IMG/VR virus record: IMGVR_UViG_3300046530_000360
Coordinates: 1-54,530 of that record
Reading direction: 5' to 3' (one strand)
Source: a virus
Length of the DNA: 54,530 bases
The position numbers and the translations under genes are program-made. Shown here one piece after another: positions 181 to 54,001 of the stretch (position 1 is its first letter; each line of letters starts with the position of its first letter). The notes under the pieces are model-generated. The model ran no database searches. It had not been told where the DNA came from and worked only from the letters and a program-made list of their open reading frames with translations.

Positions 181-270
181 GGAGAGATGCCAGAGTGGCC
201 GAATGGGACGGATTCGAAATCCGTTGTACCTTCACCGGTACCTAGGGTTCGAATCCCTATCTCTCCGCCA
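181..270 (+). tRNA. tRNA-Ser(CGA), 3' part supplied by the prophage
   Basis: A 90-nt class II tRNA. Acceptor strand GGAGAGA (181-187) pairs with TCTCTCC before GCCA. The anticodon loop TTCGAAA sits in a 5-bp stem ACGGA/TCCGT and gives anticodon CGA. A long variable arm (ACCTTCACCGGT) and T-arm AGGGTTCGAATCCCT are present, and CCA is encoded. The first 27 nt are host; everything from 208 lies in the repeat shared with the right end, so the intact gene is rebuilt by integration. Confidence 0.97.
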
Positions 271-272
271 TA
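208..272 (+). repeat. attL core (65-bp direct repeat)
   Basis: Identical to 53937-54001. It covers the anticodon arm to the CCA end of tRNA-Ser plus two further bases. Identity stops at 207/53936 and 273/54002, which defines the crossover region. Use of a tRNA 3' half by a neighbouring tyrosine integrase is the usual arrangement. The prophage unit is 53,729 bp, the offset between the two copies. Confidence 0.96.
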
Positions 273-380: not shown

Positions 381-1358
381 ATGGCCTATTACGAAAAACG
401 CGGTGACGCCTGGCGCGCCCAGATCCGTCGCAAAGGATATCCGACACTTTCAGCCACCTTCGACACCAAGGCAGAAGCCCAGCGATGGGCGGCCGAGATC
501 GAGGGGGATATGTCGCGCTCGCGATTTGTCGACACCCGGGAAGCTGAGAGCACCACGCTTAACGAAGCCCTGACCCGGTACGTCAACGAGGTGAGCGAGT
601 CGAAGAAGGGGTCGGCACAAGAGAAGGTCCGGGCCAAGAAGTGGCAGAAGTCGGAATACGCCAGCAAATCCTTGGCCGCGATCCGCTCGAGCGACATGGC
701 GGCTTACCGTGATGCCGAGCTGAAGGCCGGCAAGTCCACAGCCACCGTCCGCCTGAATCTTGCGCTGATCAGCCACCTTTATACGGTTGCGGCAAAGGAC
801 TGGGGCATTCAGGGGCTGAAGAACCCTTGCACGGCCATTCGGATGCCGAAGGGCAGTAAGCAGCGGGAGCGTCGCCCGAGCACTGCCGAACTGAAGGCAC
901 TGTACAAGCACGCCGGCGAAGTAAATGCCGAGCTGCCGATCATTATCGAGCTGGCAGTCGAGACGGCAATGCGCCGGTCAGAACTGGTAATGCTCAGGAA
1001 GGATCAAATCAGGGGGAGAGTCGCATTCCTCGAAGACACGAAGAACGGCGAGCGCCGGTCCGTCCCACTATCAACGCGGGCGGCGGAGCTCTTGGAGGGA
1101 TTGCCGACGCCAATCGACGGCGGCAGGTACTTTCATTTGAAGCTCGACAGCGTGAGCAACTATTTCGCGCTGGCGTGTGAGGCGGCGAAGATCAAAGACC
1201 TCCGCCTGCACGATATGCGCCACGAAGCGACCAGCCGCCTGTTCGAGCGCGGCCTGTCCCTTATGGAGGTGGCGAGCATTACAGGGCACAAGACCCTGGC
1301 AATGCTTAAGCGGTACACCCACCTGTGCCCGAACAATCTCGCCGAGAAGCTGGGGTAG
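381..1358 (+). CDS. int: Tyrosine recombinase (phage integrase)
   Basis: 325 aa. It catalyses site-specific recombination between the phage site and the 3' end of tRNA-Ser. An Arm-DNA-binding-like N-terminus (about 1-50) and a SAM-like core-binding domain (about 55-150) precede the catalytic domain. Catalytic residues visible: R198 (TAMRRSEL), K221, H277 and R280 (LHDMRH), H303 (TGHK) and nucleophile Y312 (KRYTH). Start at ATG 381, MAYYEKRG, matches the usual integrase N-terminus; an upstream start in another frame (328) was not used. It is transcribed toward the leftward operon and ends 2 bp from the excisionase-like gene, so int and xis are convergent. Confidence 0.97.
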   Translation: MAYYEKRGDAWRAQIRRKGYPTLSATFDTKAEAQRWAAEIEGDMSRSRFVDTREAESTTLNEALTRYVNEVSESKKGSAQEKVRAKKWQKSEYASKSLAAIRSSDMAAYRDAELKAGKSTATVRLNLALISHLYTVAAKDWGIQGLKNPCTAIRMPKGSKQRERRPSTAELKALYKHAGEVNAELPIIIELAVETAMRRSELVMLRKDQIRGRVAFLEDTKNGERRSVPLSTRAAELLEGLPTPIDGGRYFHLKLDSVSNYFALACEAAKIKDLRLHDMRHEATSRLFERGLSLMEVASITGHKTLAMLKRYTHLCPNNLAEKLG

Positions 1359-4596: not shown

Positions 4597-5078
4597 TCGC
4601 TTGCTCCCGATTCGATGGGTTTGGGGTTGAGGACTGCCAGGTCTCGAATGCAATCAGGATGAATCTCAGTGTTTCCCCATTCAGCATGCATCCAAATCGT
4701 AAGCTCTTTAGCCCTCTCAAGTAACTCCGCATTTCGCTGCTCGGCGGCTGTCAGTCTTATCGCCAAGTTGTCACGCTCATTCACATTAGCCGCGATGATC
4801 GAACAGCGATTTCGAAGCTCTGTATAGGCGTCGGCCAGCTCTTCCCGCAACGCAGCCTCGCGGGCCAGTGCGGCGTCGAAGTCTGAGGACATCTTCTGCA
4901 GTTCAGGGATAGCTTTGATCACATCACGAAGCGGAACGCTCCAGGCCTTAACCGTTTCGCCGCCAGCCCATGGTTTACCGCCAGCAATGCGGAAATTGTT
5001 CAAGTAGCAGCAATGCAGGCGACCTTCCCACTTAACCACTTCAAGCTGAAAATGCTTTTCTTTCGTCACATCACCCAT
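4593..5078 (-). CDS. Hypothetical phage protein with coiled coil
   Basis: 161 aa from ATG 5078 (AGGAG 8 bases upstream); an in-frame TTG at 5096 is the alternative. Residues about 60-130 form a predicted coiled coil (ALAREAALREELADAYTEL and following). The N-terminal third is globular with HCCYLNNFRIAGGKPW. Modular phage protein of unknown role. Confidence 0.6.
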   Translation of the reverse strand: MGDVTKEKHFQLEVVKWEGRLHCCYLNNFRIAGGKPWAGGETVKAWSVPLRDVIKAIPELQKMSSDFDAALAREAALREELADAYTELRNRCSIIAANVNERDNLAIRLTAAEQRNAELLERAKELTIWMHAEWGNTEIHPDCIRDLAVLNPKPIESGASE

Positions 5079-5152
5079 CTCAAAATCTCCTGCCAATCTG
5101 CAATCATCGATAGCCCGACAAGGGCGGCGTAGTGTTCTGGTAATGCCCTTGC

Positions 5153-5593
5153 TTATTTCTTCGGCTTAGGACTGGACTTAAGCGGAGTGGTCAATGCCTT
5201 CTCGACACTCCAGCCAAGCCGCAGGCGCATGCTCAGGGTGTTGGCAGTCATGCCAATCTCGACAGCCCAGTCAGCCACGTTCTTCGTGACGCCCTTGTGC
5301 TCAAGCATCACGCAGTGGGTGCGGTTCTTGTTCTGCTCGGCCTGGGTGATCCATCGGCAGTTACCAGGCTCGTATCCCTTGGCGTTCTCGGTGCGATCAA
5401 GGGTCATGGTGCGATCAGGACATTCACCCATGTCCTCGCGGAAGTTCGCGAAGTCGCGCCAGCGCTCGCAGACCTTCACGCCGAGAGCGCCGTAATACTT
5501 GTAGTTGCCACAGGTGGGCGTATTGCAGCGCTGCATCATCGACTTCCAGCGCGCATAGGTCAGCGTGCCGCAACCGCCGTGCTTGATTCGCAT
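5153..5593 (-). CDS. HNH-like homing-endonuclease-type protein
   Basis: 146 aa. The N-terminal half has the pattern RWKSMMQRCNTPTCGNY, then YYGALGV, CERWRDF, MTLDRTENAKGYEPGNCRW and QAEQNKN. This order is typical of a family of HNH/AP2-type phage endonuclease-like proteins. The C-terminal part (KNVADWAVEIGMTANTLSMR) looks like a target-recognition helix-turn-helix. TAGGAG precedes the ATG. The gene begins inside the 3' end of the truncated avd-like gene, so it may be an insertion that replaced the DGR core. No data on activity. Confidence 0.6.
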   Translation of the reverse strand: MRIKHGGCGTLTYARWKSMMQRCNTPTCGNYKYYGALGVKVCERWRDFANFREDMGECPDRTMTLDRTENAKGYEPGNCRWITQAEQNKNRTHCVMLEHKGVTKNVADWAVEIGMTANTLSMRLRLGWSVEKALTTPLKSSPKPKK

Positions 5594-5805
5594 GTCGTTC
5601 TCCTATGCAGCAAAGTCAGGTGTGGGTGCTTGTCCCGGGTCGAGTTAGCCCGGGCAATCAACATCAGCACGTCGATGCACTCATCGATGACGCGCTTCCC
5701 GAGTGACTGCTTGAGATCTCGGGGGATGTTGCGAGTGATGTTTGTGGCCATCTGGAGCAGGCCCAGTGACACCTTGTAGATGCTCAGTTCTGTATGCATT
5801 CCCAT
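5560..5805 (-). CDS. Truncated Avd-like four-helix-bundle protein (DGR accessory)
   Basis: 81 aa. Residues 1-64 (ELSIYKVSLGLLQMATNI, NIPRDLKQSLGKRVIDE, LIARANSTRDK, HPHLTLL) follow the pattern of Avd, the pentameric accessory protein that works with DGR reverse transcriptases. Avd proteins usually have about 110-130 residues. Here the last 17 residues (HRRTTCESSTAVAAR) come from reading out of frame into the next gene, so the C-terminal helices are missing. It lies 58 bp from a variable-repeat gene, the usual place for avd. Probably a remnant; truncated function is possible. Confidence 0.6.
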   Translation of the reverse strand: MGMHTELSIYKVSLGLLQMATNITRNIPRDLKQSLGKRVIDECIDVLMLIARANSTRDKHPHLTLLHRRTTCESSTAVAAR

Positions 5806-5862: not shown

Positions 5863-6474
5863 TTAATCAATCAATTGACTGCGGACGGGGCGGACGAGCG
5901 CGGTGAGGTCCTTGCCGTCGGTGCACTGATAGCCATCATCGAAGTGCATGAGGAATGCGTAGTTGGCAGAGCGCTGCGAAGATGACCAGTACCCGGTGGG
6001 CTTGAAGGCTTCAGTTCCACCAGCTTGGAAGGCGGGCAGCGTGGTCTGAGCCGGTGACTCTTCGGTATGCGGCAGGCCGACAGGCTCGCTGTTCGGGTTG
6101 TCGCCGCTGCGTCCGTATTGCCAGTTCGTTTCGGTGGTCGGCTTTAAGTGACGATACTGCAGCTCTTGCTGATCGCGCGCCGGGATCGCCCAATCATCGT
6201 GTCCGCCAATACGCAGTGCCAGGGCCTGCTGAGCCAGTTCGCTACCAGCGGCGGCCATGGCTTCGGTGTTGGCGCGGCCATTGGTGAAGCTGTCGGCGCC
6301 TTCGATCTTCGCGCCGTACTCGCCCCAAGCGCCTACCAGTTCATGAGCCGCGCCGGCGGTGATATTCAGGTAGCGCTTGCCGGTGTCAGGGTCGCGGGTG
6401 ATACCGGAGAAGAAACCACCACCGAATGGCTGGCCAATTTCCGGGATGGCTACTGCTTGCTGTGCTGCGGACAT
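5863..6474 (-). CDS. DUF1566-like variable protein 1 (DGR-type target)
   Basis: 203 aa from ATG 6474, with GAGGAAAG upstream. The C-terminal half fits a DUF1566/C-type-lectin-like fold: HDDWAIPARDQQELQY, then YWSSSQRSAN and TALVRPVR near the end. Codons at 5905-5964 form a variable segment aligned with those of 6552-7145 and 15094-15672. All differences there fall on the first two bases of codons ending C or T. In known DGRs such folds display adenine-randomised residues for ligand binding. The N-terminus has no signal peptide. Location in the early leftward operon rather than the tail module is unusual. Confidence 0.8.
   Translation of the reverse strand: MSAAQQAVAIPEIGQPFGGGFFSGITRDPDTGKRYLNITAGAAHELVGAWGEYGAKIEGADSFTNGRANTEAMAAAGSELAQQALALRIGGHDDWAIPARDQQELQYRHLKPTTETNWQYGRSGDNPNSEPVGLPHTEESPAQTTLPAFQAGGTEAFKPTGYWSSSQRSANYAFLMHFDDGYQCTDGKDLTALVRPVRSQLID
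5905..5964 (-). repeat. Variable repeat VR1 (DGR-type)
   Basis: Twenty codons, of which 12 vary among the three paralogues, always with the third base kept. The near-constant flanks extend over 5881-5991. The downstream flank (ACCGCGCTCGTCCGC, 5890-5904) is GC-rich and identical in all three copies, like an initiation of mutagenic homing site. Confidence 0.78.
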
Positions 6475-6499
6475 GGTCTTTCCTCTTTGCGAAGGCAAC

Positions 6500-6520
6500 A
6501 AAAAAGGCGCTGCTGCGCCC
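6500..6520 (-). terminator. Intrinsic terminator/hairpin after variable protein 2
   Basis: On the minus strand GGCGC-AGCA-GCGCC is followed by TTTTTT (A-run at 6500-6505 on the plus strand). It lies 32 bp past the stop of the 6552-7145 gene and just before the ribosome site of variable protein 1. It may act as terminator and also as the hairpin expected behind a DGR variable repeat. Confidence 0.65.
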
Positions 6521-6551: not shown

Positions 6552-7145
6552 TCAAATAAAGAATCTGCGGACGGGGCGGACGAGCGCGGTGGTGATCTTG
6601 GCGCTGTAGCCCTGATTGCCATCAGCGAAGTGCATGTCGAATGCGTCGTTGGCAGAGCGCTGCGTTGACGACCAGTACGCGCCCTTGGCGATCAGGTCAT
6701 ACACCCAAGCCTGATGCAGCTGAGCAGCTGCTGGAAGATCGAAGTCAGCGTGCCCCTCTGCGGTATATGCCCGAGCCTCTTCTGCGGCTGGATGCCCCCC
6801 GGCGGCGATCAGCGCATCGGTATTGGCTTTGCCGTCCCACTTGCTGGTTGCAACAGATTCCTCGCCGTAGCGACCCCACTTGTGCTCGCCGAGGTCTTTG
6901 TCGGCGAAGATCAGGTAGTGCTCCGGGATATCACCGCGCGCCGGGACAAAGCCGCCATTAACACCGCCTTGGCCTGGCCAATATTCACCGACCGCCGGGA
7001 TGGGGCAGGGCACAACCGGCTGAACGTTGGCCGTCGGCGGCAATGTCTGGGCGAGCAGGCCAGCCATCAGCACCTGCACCATCCGCTCAGAGGTTCCTTT
7101 GATCTTGAGGCCGTCAGCCTCAATGGAAATCGTGTTGGTCTTCAT
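6552..7145 (-). CDS. DUF1566-like variable protein 2 (DGR-type target)
   Basis: 197 aa, AAGGAAAG before ATG 7145. It has an N-terminal helical region (LKIKGTSERMVQVLMAG), a Pro-rich linker, and a body sharing DKDLGEHKWGRYGEE with protein 3. The C-terminal lectin-like segment (DFDLPAAAQLHQAW, AYWSSTQRSAN, TALVRPVRR) carries variable repeat 2. It is adjacent to protein 1 and probably co-transcribed. The different N-termini of the three paralogues against near-identical C-termini argue for copying of the C-terminal segment, not simple gene duplication. Confidence 0.8.
   Translation of the reverse strand: MKTNTISIEADGLKIKGTSERMVQVLMAGLLAQTLPPTANVQPVVPCPIPAVGEYWPGQGGVNGGFVPARGDIPEHYLIFADKDLGEHKWGRYGEESVATSKWDGKANTDALIAAGGHPAAEEARAYTAEGHADFDLPAAAQLHQAWVYDLIAKGAYWSSTQRSANDAFDMHFADGNQGYSAKITTALVRPVRRFFI
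6591..6650 (-). repeat. Variable repeat VR2 (DGR-type)
   Basis: Aligned codon by codon with VR1 and VR3. Examples of variable codons (VR1/VR2/VR3): TAC/GAC/CTC, CTC/GAC/ACC, GAT/GCT/GGT, TAT/AAT/AGT, TGC/GGC/CTC. Constant codons between them include TTC, ATG, CAG and AAG. Confidence 0.78.
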
Positions 7146-8808: not shown

Positions 8809-9459
8809 TTACTCCTGCTGCTTAGGCGCCCTAGGGAAGAAGGCCGGTCTTGCGTTGGATTTTGGATAGTCGATGTCGAAATTTTCGAGGATGCGAGTGA
8901 AAGCGCGATATGAAATGCCAGCCTTCTCGCGTGCTTGGTTGCGAGTAAGGCCAAGTTCCTTGAATGCCTTGATGCGTTCAGCGTCTTTGGCATCTTTCTC
9001 TTCATCAACATTGCAGCGCAGGTTAGCTTGGCTTTTGAATGCGGCCCGCTGAAACTTGAAGCCGTTGGCTTTGGCCATATTGGTCAGTGTTCGGCGCGAC
9101 AGACCAGTGCTCATGATCGCTTGCGCGTAGGTCATGGTTTCGGCGAGCTTTCTGATGCGCTTGATCAGTTCCAGCTTTTCCCGAGATCGCTCTATGGCCC
9201 GTTCCTCGCGTTCAATATCGCGCTGTGCAAGTTTATCGCGCCATGCTGGCGTTTCTGGCTTTGTTACCGGCTTGGCTTTGGCTGCCTTCTTCTTCGGTGG
9301 CGGCTCATGCCTCACTGGCGGCGGCACAAAGCTCGGTCCCTGCAATACCTCAATAGTCCCTCCTTTGTTCAAGAAGGCCTCCTGAAGCAGGGCAAGTTCG
9401 TGGCGTTGAGGGTCGAGTATCTGGATCATGGAAAGCTCTGTGCTGACGTATGCGTTCAT
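8809..9459 (-). CDS. Phage protein with coiled coil and helix-turn-helix segments
   Basis: 216 aa. Pro/Lys-rich linker (PPPKKKAAKAKPVTKPE), coiled coil (about 75-105), then two HTH-like stretches (TMTYAQAIMSTGLSRRTL and LTRNQAREKAGISYRAF). The start overlaps the exonuclease stop by ATGA (9456-9459), suggesting coupled translation with the recombination genes. Function unknown; DNA binding is inferred. Confidence 0.6.
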   Translation of the reverse strand: MNAYVSTELSMIQILDPQRHELALLQEAFLNKGGTIEVLQGPSFVPPPVRHEPPPKKKAAKAKPVTKPETPAWRDKLAQRDIEREERAIERSREKLELIKRIRKLAETMTYAQAIMSTGLSRRTLTNMAKANGFKFQRAAFKSQANLRCNVDEEKDAKDAERIKAFKELGLTRNQAREKAGISYRAFTRILENFDIDYPKSNARPAFFPRAPKQQE

Positions 9460-10085
9460 GCTGCACCTCTCATTCGGCCTCGCATTTCCTGTTCAAGTTC
9501 GGCCAGCTCTTCTAGGAAGGCCTTGATCTCGGCTTCCATCTCGCGACCGCGCTTGAAGTCGAAGTCGTAGCGGAAGCAGACGTATTGCAGCTCTTCAGGC
9601 AAGCGGTCGTCGTAACTCACGAAGTCCGCCCAATGGCGACCTGTGCAAGCCATCTGGGCCAGCATCTGCCATTCGTACTGCGGGTCGTGGCGGCGTGACT
9701 GCATGGTTGCGATGTGCGTGGCAGTGTTCGGGCACTTGATCTCCAGCACTCCGTCATCGCCGGCGAGCCCGTCAGGCGACGCCCCGAAGCATTCAATCTT
9801 CGGGTGCATTACCAGCCCGGTTTCGACGACCATCAGGCCTTTGTCGGCCTCGTAGGCCATGCAGGCAAATGGCTCAAGCTCAACGCCTCGTTGCACAGCG
9901 GCATTACGGGACAGATCCATGCCGCCTTGCTGGCCGGTCAGTCGTTCGCACAGCAACTCCATCATGTAGTTTTTGCGAGTGGCAGAAGGCGCGCCACCGC
10001 GCCCGCTGGCCATCACATCCTTAACGCGGCTGGCCGTGACGTTACCTAGGCGTGCCGCAAACCACTCTTCGCTACGCTGCTCCAT
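9456..10085 (-). CDS. YqaJ/lambda-exonuclease-family nuclease
   Basis: 209 aa. A 5'-3' double-strand exonuclease that makes 3' tails for the annealing protein. Features of the PD-(D/E)xK fold: EEWFAARLGNVTAS near the N-terminus, E71 in RGVELEPFA, D105 in SPDGL, and E115-x-K117 in LEIKCP. Length is close to lambda Exo (226 aa). It overlaps recT by 14 bp, the standard exonuclease/annealase pair. Confidence 0.9.
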   Translation of the reverse strand: MEQRSEEWFAARLGNVTASRVKDVMASGRGGAPSATRKNYMMELLCERLTGQQGGMDLSRNAAVQRGVELEPFACMAYEADKGLMVVETGLVMHPKIECFGASPDGLAGDDGVLEIKCPNTATHIATMQSRRHDPQYEWQMLAQMACTGRHWADFVSYDDRLPEELQYVCFRYDFDFKRGREMEAEIKAFLEELAELEQEMRGRMRGAA

Positions 10086-11016
10086 CTAACACCTCCTCGG
10101 CTTGGCCTTCGATAGGCGCAGTCTCTGCTTTGATGGCCTCGCCGCGCCTAGTCACTTCCGCCTTGAAGCGAGCGTGACCTGCGGCGTCTTTGGCTTGCTT
10201 CATGGCTGCCGTACCCTGGTGATAAACCTCGGTCAGTGCTTCCAGACTTCCAGCCTTCATCGCAAGGTCGATCCAGCTGTTGACCAATTCGGGATCAGTC
10301 GGTGCCGAACCGGGCATTCCGACCAAACCTTCTCCGCCATCCGTGTTCAGGTGGTGGATGGCCTGCTCAAGCCGGTCTGTCTTCGGCCAGAACTTGTAAC
10401 CTCGCTTCACCACCGTCTTTTTCGCCATCTCGCCCGGGTCTGTCACCCAAGGGCAAGACTTCTTCTTATCGACCCATGCCCTCCAGGCGCTCGACCGGTC
10501 TCGAATGGCGTTGACGTCGTCAATGCCCATCGTCTCAGTTAGGTAGTCGCCGTCGGCGGTCTTGACCACCACGTATACGCCAACCGCCTCGCCGCGATCT
10601 TTGGCGAACGGTTTGTAGGTATGGGTGGGAGGCTTGTCGAAGCCGTTCAGTGCGAAGACGTCAGCTTCATGGACAAGTTCAGCCTGGGCCCAGCGTATGG
10701 CGCCGGTGGCCATGGCCAGATCCATCAGTCCGATATAGCTGATGTCGAGGCATATCTTGCCGTCGCGCGGGACCAGATAAGCCTGTTTCTTAGCTGGATT
10801 CAGGCTGATACCGATAGCCGCGATGTTCGTGATTGCGTTAACCACCGACTGCCGGTTTTGCAATGCGATCTTGGTGGCATATTCACCGGCAGTGATAATT
10901 TGGATGGCGAACTCTGCCTCTCGATCAAAGTTGATCGAACGGTCGGTTAGGACATTGGCGAACTGGTTGCGGGCGCCGTAGATGTCCTGAGTAATCGTTG
11001 CGATTGCTTGACTCAT
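10072..11016 (-). CDS. recT: RecT-family single-strand annealing protein
   Basis: 314 aa. Anneals complementary ssDNA during phage recombination and replication. The RecT core is clear: NAITNIAAIGISLNPAKKQA, YLVPRDGKICLDISYIGLMD, then VYVVVKTADG and WVTDPGEMAKKTVVKRG. The C-terminal tail is acidic and variable. It lies directly upstream of the nuclease gene and downstream of a coiled-coil gene often paired with recT in phages. Confidence 0.93.
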   Translation of the reverse strand: MSQAIATITQDIYGARNQFANVLTDRSINFDREAEFAIQIITAGEYATKIALQNRQSVVNAITNIAAIGISLNPAKKQAYLVPRDGKICLDISYIGLMDLAMATGAIRWAQAELVHEADVFALNGFDKPPTHTYKPFAKDRGEAVGVYVVVKTADGDYLTETMGIDDVNAIRDRSSAWRAWVDKKKSCPWVTDPGEMAKKTVVKRGYKFWPKTDRLEQAIHHLNTDGGEGLVGMPGSAPTDPELVNSWIDLAMKAGSLEALTEVYHQGTAAMKQAKDAAGHARFKAEVTRRGEAIKAETAPIEGQAEEVLDGAA

Positions 11017-12181: not shown

Positions 12182-12410
12182 GGGGAGCTCCTTCCGCCAT
12201 GCAGGCGGCGTATGAGTTCGAGTTATTGAGTGAGGATGGGATATCAGGTCACAAACGGTCTGGGTTAGCCCGCTTGGCTAGGTCTCCACAGACAGCCTTG
12301 CAGGTGAAGGACCAGCTCCTATTCGCCCTGATTGGCGGTGATGTCTTATCGCGCTCTTGCCGCCTTGCGCGTCTGGGCCATCCAGTTAAGGCCCTCCCAG
12401 CGAGGGTGAA
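12182..12410. other. Non-coding stretch in the leftward operon
   Basis: No convincing gene on either strand. The minus strand holds GGAAGGAG just before the ATG at 12181, which sets that start. The rest shows only an 11-codon frame (MAQTRKAARAR) with no support. Confidence 0.5.
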
Positions 12411-15093: not shown

Positions 15094-15672
15094 TTAAATA
15101 GGCAATCTGCGGACGAGGCGGACGAGCGCGGTGAGGTTCTTGACGTAGTTGAGCTGACTGCCATCACCGAAGTTCATGGTGAATGCGAGGTAGGCAGAGC
15201 GCTGCGAACTCGACCAGTACCAGGTCTTCTCGAAGTGCTCAGCGATGGTCTGCCAGGCGTGATTCAGCTCACCGATGCTGGGCAGGTAGAAGTCGTGGTG
15301 GCCGTCGACGGAGTGATTGCCGGCTGCCTCTGCTGCCGGGAACGATCCATCAGCCTCAAGCAGGGTCGTGGTATTCAGGATGCCGTTGACCTTGCTGGTG
15401 GCGGCTGTTTCGGTTCCGTACTCGCCCCACTTGTGTTCGCCAATGTCTTTGTCGGCGAAGATCAGGTGGTAAAGCTCGCCATCCTCACCTTGCCGGATAC
15501 CGGCGTAGATGCCGCCTTGCCCCGCCCAGTAAGTGCCGATCGCCGGAACATCGCTGTTCGCCGCCGGCGCCTTGGCTTGCTCGCCACCAAGAACCATGTT
15601 CGCAAACATCAGCACCAGCGCCTTGTCGGGGCTGCTGATCGTTGATTCGCCGCAAGTGATATGAGTCATCAT
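15094..15672 (-). CDS. DUF1566-like variable protein 3 (DGR-type target)
   Basis: 192 aa, AAGGAG 8 bases before ATG 15672. It shares IGTYWAGQGGIYAG and DKDIGEHKWGEYG with protein 2. The C-terminal lectin-like part (HHDFYLPSIGELNHAW, WYWSSSQRSAY, TALVRLVRR) carries variable repeat 3. It lies 8 kb from the other two targets in the same orientation. One base in the otherwise constant flank differs (CTC for CCC, giving L in place of P). Confidence 0.8.
   Translation of the reverse strand: MMTHITCGESTISSPDKALVLMFANMVLGGEQAKAPAANSDVPAIGTYWAGQGGIYAGIRQGEDGELYHLIFADKDIGEHKWGEYGTETAATSKVNGILNTTTLLEADGSFPAAEAAGNHSVDGHHDFYLPSIGELNHAWQTIAEHFEKTWYWSSSQRSAYLAFTMNFGDGSQLNYVKNLTALVRLVRRLPI
15133..15192 (-). 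repeat. Variable repeat VR3 (DGR-type)
   Basis: Third copy of the 20-codon variable segment; constant flanks extend over about 15109-15219. Every difference from VR1 and VR2 within the segment is at codon position 1 or 2 of NNC or NNT codons. Confidence 0.78.
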
Positions 15673-26236: not shown

Positions 26237-26351
26237 GCTTTGTGGATGAATGCACCGGTAGGCGCCAGTGGCCCAGGCGGGGGATCGGGACCTGCCATTC
26301 GCACCCTATTCAAGTCCGGCAAGCCTCTCGACGATGCTCAAATAGCCCGGC

Positions 26352-53936: not shown

Positions 53937-54001
53937 ACGGATTCGAAATCCGTTGTACCTTCACCGGTACCTAGGGTTCGAATCCCTATCTCTCCGCCAT
54001 A
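53937..54001 (+). repeat. attR core (65-bp direct repeat)
   Basis: Identical to 208-272. Here the 3' half of tRNA-Ser is not joined to a 5' half, so it is a silent fragment that marks the host end of the original gene. Confidence 0.96.

Follow-up and report, generated by a model that had tools for sequence, protein, structure and literature searches.

HNH endonuclease genes at the site of the diversity-generating retroelement core in a Pseudomonas-type prophage and related phages

Three targets of a diversity-generating retroelement (DGR) are present in a Pseudomonas-type prophage in which neither a reverse transcriptase (RT) nor a template repeat (TR) was found, and an HNH endonuclease gene occupies the place where related phages carry this DGR core. 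The whole prophage lies within one virus record (IMGVR_UViG_3300046530_000360), which was analysed at its full length of 54,530 bases and is called the window here. We consider it likely that homing-type HNH genes have replaced the DGR core repeatedly and recently, which would have left freshly orphaned targets behind.

The window prophage and its targets

The main features of the window are listed in Table 1. Since the element is bounded by the att repeats, the tRNA-Ser gene and the integrase gene, the missing core is no product of a cut contig, and contig truncation was ruled out as its cause. Two RNA matches were also obtained in the window: an abiF RNA (RF03085) at 26316-26351, with a score barely over the gathering threshold, and a Proteo-phage-1 RNA (RF03044) at 12330-12406, which the related phage L043 has at the corresponding place.

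Table 1. Coordinates of features in the window
Feature	Position	Strand	Evidence or remark
tRNA-Ser	181-270		Beside left att repeat
Left att repeat	208-272	+	65-bp exact repeat, at tRNA-Ser
Integrase	381-1358	+	Pfam Phage_integrase
Right junction: last RT codons (P-K-K-stop, common to HNH ORF) and DNA past the RT gene	5063-5164	-	96% identity over 102 nt to RT-positive L043
HNH endonuclease ORF, 146 aa, at the place of the avd 3' part, RT-15 RNA, TR and RT	5153-5593	-	PHROG 3377 'HNH endonuclease', E=2.4e-49
avd stub: initial ~66 codons of the gene encoding the DGR accessory protein, frame lost thereafter	5608-5805	-	79% to avd residues 1-63
Target 1 (T1), Lcl_C/DUF1566-like, C-terminal variable repeat (VR) ~5881-5976	5863-6501	-	T1 orthologue in RT-positive phages
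Target 2 (T2), same kind as T1, VR ~6567-6662	6552-7145	-	VR pattern
YqaJ exonuclease and RecT annealing protein	9456-11016	-	Pfam YqaJ and RecT
Target 3 (T3), remote third target, VR ~15109-15204	15094-15672	-	VR pattern
Right att repeat	53937-54001	+	Partner of the 65-bp exact repeat 208-272

The three targets are genuine DGR targets. Each has a VR in the 3' end of the gene, and, against a template inferred from relatives and from the constant sites of the VRs themselves, T1, T2 and T3 have 13, 11 and 12 changes, respectively, among 30 template-A sites, vs 0, 0 and 1 among 60 other sites (36/90 vs 1/180 when pooled); the single constant-site change, in T3, is C-to-T. A TR matching these VRs is expected to have the constant sites ACCGCGCTCGTC. 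The VR constants are identical, with one exception, among the three paralogues, the bodies of which are about half identical or less. As an earlier note on this DNA had claimed, the constant motif is confined to the targets: the 14-mer GGCAGAGCGCTGCG has exactly three exact matches (5965, 6651 and 15193), all inside them, and its 8 further matches with 2-3 mismatches are not above chance. A wider VR pattern gave 3 matches in the window, vs 0 expected in shuffles.

The T1 body is 95% identical to that of L040, and the RT-positive L043 encodes, in a remote position corresponding to that of T3, a protein with 91% identity. With regard to a C-type lectin fold, the Lcl_C match of T1 is slightly below the curated cut-off. 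An AlphaFold model of T2 is of low confidence (pLDDT 68, and below 50 in the VR region) and gave no PDB fold match at E<=0.001; PDB sequence searches returned HbP1 only, or CsoS2B chains only without a passing stretch. Because Lcl_C/DUF1566 proteins occur also without a DGR, the three genes might be ordinary diverged paralogues and no DGR targets at all, but this is hardly credible in view of the intact TRs carried by relatives and of the concentration of changes at template-A sites, by which ordinary paralogy was rejected.

No RVT_1 match was obtained across the 54,530-base record, and the same search was positive in the relatives G001 and G002. Only the three VRs matched in pattern searches for a TR, and the sole match of a template-like AAY pattern in the window was target 2, with 3 mismatches. 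The RT-15 RNA of Rfam, which is found beside the TR in RT-positive relatives, was not detected in the window, and only the first ~66 codons of avd are left, with no complete accessory protein. A core concealed elsewhere in the record was rejected by pattern, RVT_1 profile and homology comparisons of the window. Exact and loose patterns, the RT profile and Rfam agree with the earlier note, which had reported neither RT nor template in the prophage; this absence is absence from the virus record, the host genome being outside the compared material.

The DGR core in related phages and its scar in the window

The intact DGR of this family has the order target, target, avd, RT-15 RNA with TR, and RT, frequently with a remote third target. 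The full order T2, T1, avd, TR, RT is found in L001 and L002, with an additional remote third VR in the L001 record, and in all four RT-positive loci scanned (Cruim01, L144, L043 and L001) the RT-15 RNA immediately precedes the TR. Intact TRs of the relatives have AAC or AAT at ten codons and GAT, GAT and GAC at three further variable codons; the earlier prediction of AAC or AAT at all 12 variable codons held for the ten and failed for the three. In relatives with a complete DGR, changes were found at 2,154 of 4,516 A sites and at 37 of 8,984 other sites of 150 unique VR/TR pairs, 12 of the 37 coming from one VR (L035) that is apparently frameshifted. These pairs were taken, duplicates being dropped, from the 104 of 135 loci with exactly one TR; the 31 dropped loci mostly lack a VR of this pattern or are truncated.

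Thirty-eight loci have a T1 of at least 67% identity; 3 of them end before the core, and the other 35 have an RT in 34 cases and an HNH gene in one (L045). Among 398 Pseudomonas genomes, the VR pattern was found in 19, a target homologue in 15 of those, and a DGR RT in 13 of the 15. The genomes G003 and G328 have a solitary T3-type target; no DGR RT was found in them, and no HNH gene of the types called HNHa, HNHb and HNHw below was found in the 18-19 kb examined. The records of two distant homologues, L078 and L081, contain no RT.

Some DGR-positive loci deviate in template or RT. Both DGR-positive prophage loci of G228 (L131 and L132, on two contigs) have the unusual template GGC TAT CAG vs GGC AAT CAG, as if templates had been exchanged or shared. 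The TR of another RT-positive locus (L061 11426, contig of L171) begins its variable codons with TAC TAC vs AAC AAC, i.e., the template itself is changed. The open frame that holds the DGR RT at G400:C28:25887-26963 has 680 codons vs the usual 386-396.

DNA homology of the window to the RT-positive L002, L040, L041 and L043 extends over T2, T1 and ~66 avd codons and ends at 5608; avd, where intact, is recognised by the Pfam model bAvd and the NCBIfam model DivGenRetAVD. Homology to L043 resumes from 5164 rightward, and ~1.5 kb of L043 (10,874-12,392) stand against ~0.44 kb at the same place in the window. The HNH ORF, which has no Pfam match at E<=0.01, ends with the final codons and the stop of the lost RT gene, and no RT stub was found in the window past these last few codons. 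Its site is uninterrupted in relatives, as seen from L043 vs the window and from Cruim01 and L144 vs Aurca01. Judging from these junctions, the core of the window is not simply absent and has been replaced by the HNH gene, between avd codon ~66 and the last codons of the RT. The description of 5153-5805 as the missing core was correct as to the loss, but the interval is not empty and contains the truncated avd and the HNH ORF.

HNH genes in place of the DGR core were found in 16 records and are of at least three types (7 HNHa, 3 HNHb and 6 HNHw); since 12 of the 16 records came from HNH queries, the 16/16 association is biased, and the set free of this bias is 4/4 (window, L045, Aurca01 and Medea1). 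In Aurca01 (PP179334) and Medea1 (MW862109), HNHa (NUMOD4 + HNH_3) lies directly after T1 and is followed by an RT C-terminal stub, and no avd remnant, TR or intact RT was detected. HNHa is present in five more records, in every case at DGR targets. Records L119-L121 are close copies of each other, and in their target adjoining HNHa, T2 and T1 are fused through the VRs with loss of the T1 body, i.e., a deletion between variable repeats.

HNHb has the same locus position in L045, L125 and L126, and HNHw is the type of the window, L082, L083, L084, L085 and L086. HNHw has 37 relatives in viral contigs; the five closest (65-90% identity) all lie in DGR loci, vs 0 of the remaining 32 at E<=1e-3. 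An RT C-terminal stub follows the HNH gene in L082-L085, Aurca01, Medea1, L119-L123, L125 and L126, and none was found in L045. A half-way state is seen in L082, which has the whole avd and RT-15 RNA, a TR cut after 50 nt, the HNH gene and the RT stub. L086 has both an HNHb-like gene (4824-5309) and an HNHw gene (5958-6416) in one DGR locus; its HNHw gene ends in LTKTYR, resembling the RT C-terminus.

The left junctions vary among these swaps (after T1, inside avd or inside TR), and the junctions of the three HNH types at this one locus are all in the same terminal part of the RT. HNHa moves between backbones, being identical (0/495) in Aurca01 and Medea1, the T1 bodies of which are 31/498 apart; for the window HNH gene, only a 90% relative with a different left junction, L082, was found. 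Comparison of these loci shows that the core has been replaced by HNH genes repeatedly and near one end of the RT gene.

The window thus combines likenesses to two kinds of phage locus. It is like the Cruim01/L144-type DGR in its targets, their order, the VR constant type and the homologous start of avd, and differs in having the HNH gene where Cruim01 and L144 have TR and RT. It is like Aurca01 and Medea1 in that an HNH gene comes after two VR targets and an intact RT is lacking; these two differ from it by the other HNH type and a longer RT C-terminal stub, and no avd remnant was detected in them.

Age and possible causes of the loss

On a target-gene tree, the RT-less state has at least five origins, each of them near RT-positive relatives. 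A T1-body tree needs 5 changes of the RT-less label, each forced by well-supported branches; in this tree the short T1 bodies L192 and L193 were omitted and identical bodies were merged, by which the RT-positive L144 was hidden under L006. A second T1-body tree, with L144 apart from Aurca01 and rows of unknown RT status left out, needs 6 changes. Each RT-less tip is 0-0.094 substitutions per site from the nearest RT-positive tip, the value for the window being 0.064. The RT-positive L144 and the RT-less Aurca01 show no difference in 1,093 nt (T2 body 0/501, spacer 0/91, T1 body 0/501), and their VRs differ at 18/96 and 17/93 sites. Aurca01 (L280) and the RT-positive Cruim01 (L281), which are placed in different genera and both come from apricot soil, with P. 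syringae CC1557 as the isolation host, have 12,880 bp in common at 99.95%, ending at the HNH/RT junction. From these two comparisons, it follows that the exchange of RT-positive and HNH alleles was recent and had its boundary at this spot.

Free-standing HNH homing endonucleases are found in phages, e.g., the seg- and mob-type genes of T4, and repair of a break at the homologous locus from an endonuclease-bearing phage is homing in the classical sense. The window HNH gene is like the T4 genes in being a small endonuclease ORF that overwrites the homologous locus in relatives, and differs from them in that the overwritten locus is a DGR core and homing is putative. Under the replacement by homing-type genes that we favour, the HNH enzymes would be homing endonucleases that cut DGR RT genes at the 3' end; the break would be repaired from an HNH-bearing relative by phage recombination (RecT/YqaJ or ERF), and this repair would copy the HNH gene over the DGR core. 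The YqaJ and RecT genes of the window could be a conceivable driver of such repair-coupled exchange. The targets would stay intact and no longer be rewritten by their own machine, and would become variable again only via recombination with DGR-positive phages or via a DGR core made available within that cell. Since the left junctions differ between cases, a single mechanism for all of them is not required. Counting against this explanation are also the failure to find an RT stub in L045, or one past the last few codons in the window, and the solitary targets of G003 and G328.

A similar picture would result from a deletion by recombination in which an HNH gene was picked up by chance. That plain deletion or recombination took the core, with the HNH gene as a passenger having no causal role, seems unlikely to us: the varying left junctions agree with it, phages commonly carry HNH genes as passengers, and recombination is promoted by VR/TR repeats, the T2/T1 fusion of L119-L121 being an example, but three HNH types share one locus and the same terminal RT part, the closest HNHw relatives are in DGR loci when the others are not, and one HNHa sequence is common to diverged backbones. 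An old frozen relic, with an ancient loss of the core and VRs that are mere fossils, would fit a record without RT or TR and the C-to-T change in T3. It is nevertheless very unlikely, because the VR constants are still identical with one exception in spite of the divergence of the paralogue bodies, the nearest RT-positive relative is close to the window in the tree, and the core is at the same place in the closest RT-positive phages. The earlier note had left a choice between targets served in trans and frozen relics; it was right that the VRs are real and the core is gone, but it overlooked the recent HNH replacement and the closest relatives that keep the core.

Service in trans, in which TR RNA, Avd and RT of a co-resident or co-infecting DGR-positive phage would still rewrite the targets of an RT-less prophage, is in our estimate unlikely. 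RT-less VRs are as clean as RT-positive ones, with non-A changes of 4/1,080 vs 37/8,984, the former count excluding L083-L086, which have another VR type, and L120/L121, which have the VR of L119, and being lowered by references for the window, L125 and L126 that were inferred from their own VRs. The VRs of the RT-less Medea1 and L122 differ at 13/30 template-A sites and 0/63 others within close, collinear flanks (T1 body 99.2%, tail 0/43, HNH gene 8/495), and those of the RT-less Aurca01 and L123 at 13/30 A sites, with 0/150 nt different left of the VR, 0/43 in the tail and 4/495 in the HNH gene. Change of the VR after core loss would explain the Medea1/L122 difference more simply, which counts against our preferred explanation. 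By contrast, orphan targets of lytic jumbo phages look frozen (Deifobo vs Paride, VR 0/114, body 18/375). However, the RT-positive L144 has the target alleles of Aurca01, so VR diversity can predate the loss and be inherited from an RT-positive ancestor; with identical target bodies in L144, trans service as a necessary conclusion, drawn from Aurca01/Medea1 and then from Medea1/L122, lost its force. The lone targets of G003 and G328, with no RT found in either genome, also speak against it, as do the 0/6 isolate genome ids with RT-less prophages among 61 consensus-TR contigs (exact pattern, viral contigs only) and a search of viral contigs in which no VR or TR had the ACCGCGCTC signature that is private to the window. 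A plasmid search gave 3 distant matches. In metagenome 3300046515, the RT-less L082 and the RT-positive L055 were found together, a co-occurrence that permits trans service. We regard borrowed mutagenesis as possible, though none of the results demands a helper. Equally doubtful to us as trans service is the wider proposal that a guild of HNH homing endonucleases specialised on DGR RT genes repeatedly turns DGR-positive phages into DGR-less ones, the targets still being rewritten in trans by DGR-positive phages and the mutator thus being a public good with cheaters.

Orphan DGR-type targets were also observed in ~288-kb lytic jumbo phages (MIJ3, Deifobo, 30-2, 30-3, PA5oct, Callisto, Paride, Cassandra and Ettore) and D3-like phages (PMG1 and phi_D3), comprising L282-L292. 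Their VRs are frozen between some close relatives and different between clades; phages 30-3 and Callisto differ at 1/114 in the VR and 14/375 in the body. The RT-positive relatives Haboob and phPA-G have a TR of matching type, and no RT was found in MIJ3 and PMG1, the two phages scanned.

Precedents and significance

The closest precedent for trans use is Thiohalocapsa PB-PSB1, the degenerate DGR loci of which are argued to be diversified in trans (PMC10907252). As in the window, its targets have their own RT/TR missing or broken; matching complete DGRs lie elsewhere on its chromosome, whereas none was found for the window, where the core is replaced by an HNH gene. The trans activity argued there also speaks for trans service in general, and trans use of a DGR core, which the earlier note would have seen as a new arrangement for a temperate phage, is not without precedent. 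Term searches for 'reverse transcriptase' and 'diversity-generating' gave no match in the main text of PMC11256456 (Aurca01/Cruim01) and PMC10175458 (Medea1). In the literature covered, in which subscription journals are thinly represented, we found no account of a DGR core giving way to an HNH gene.

In E. coli, bRT, Avd and TR are each needed for diversification, as reported in PMC12875486, and therefore the window prophage should be unable to diversify itself. Targets that lie apart from their RT escape surveys anchored on the RT (Roux et al.), and orphaned targets are a blind spot akin to such RT-distant targets. Repeated erasure of DGR cores by HNH genes at one site would, if real, give DGR loss a specific, testable agent. 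The natural near-isogenic set of Aurca01, Cruim01 and L144 would then let the gain from diversifying Lcl_C-like proteins be asked, and with it the service of targets in trans.
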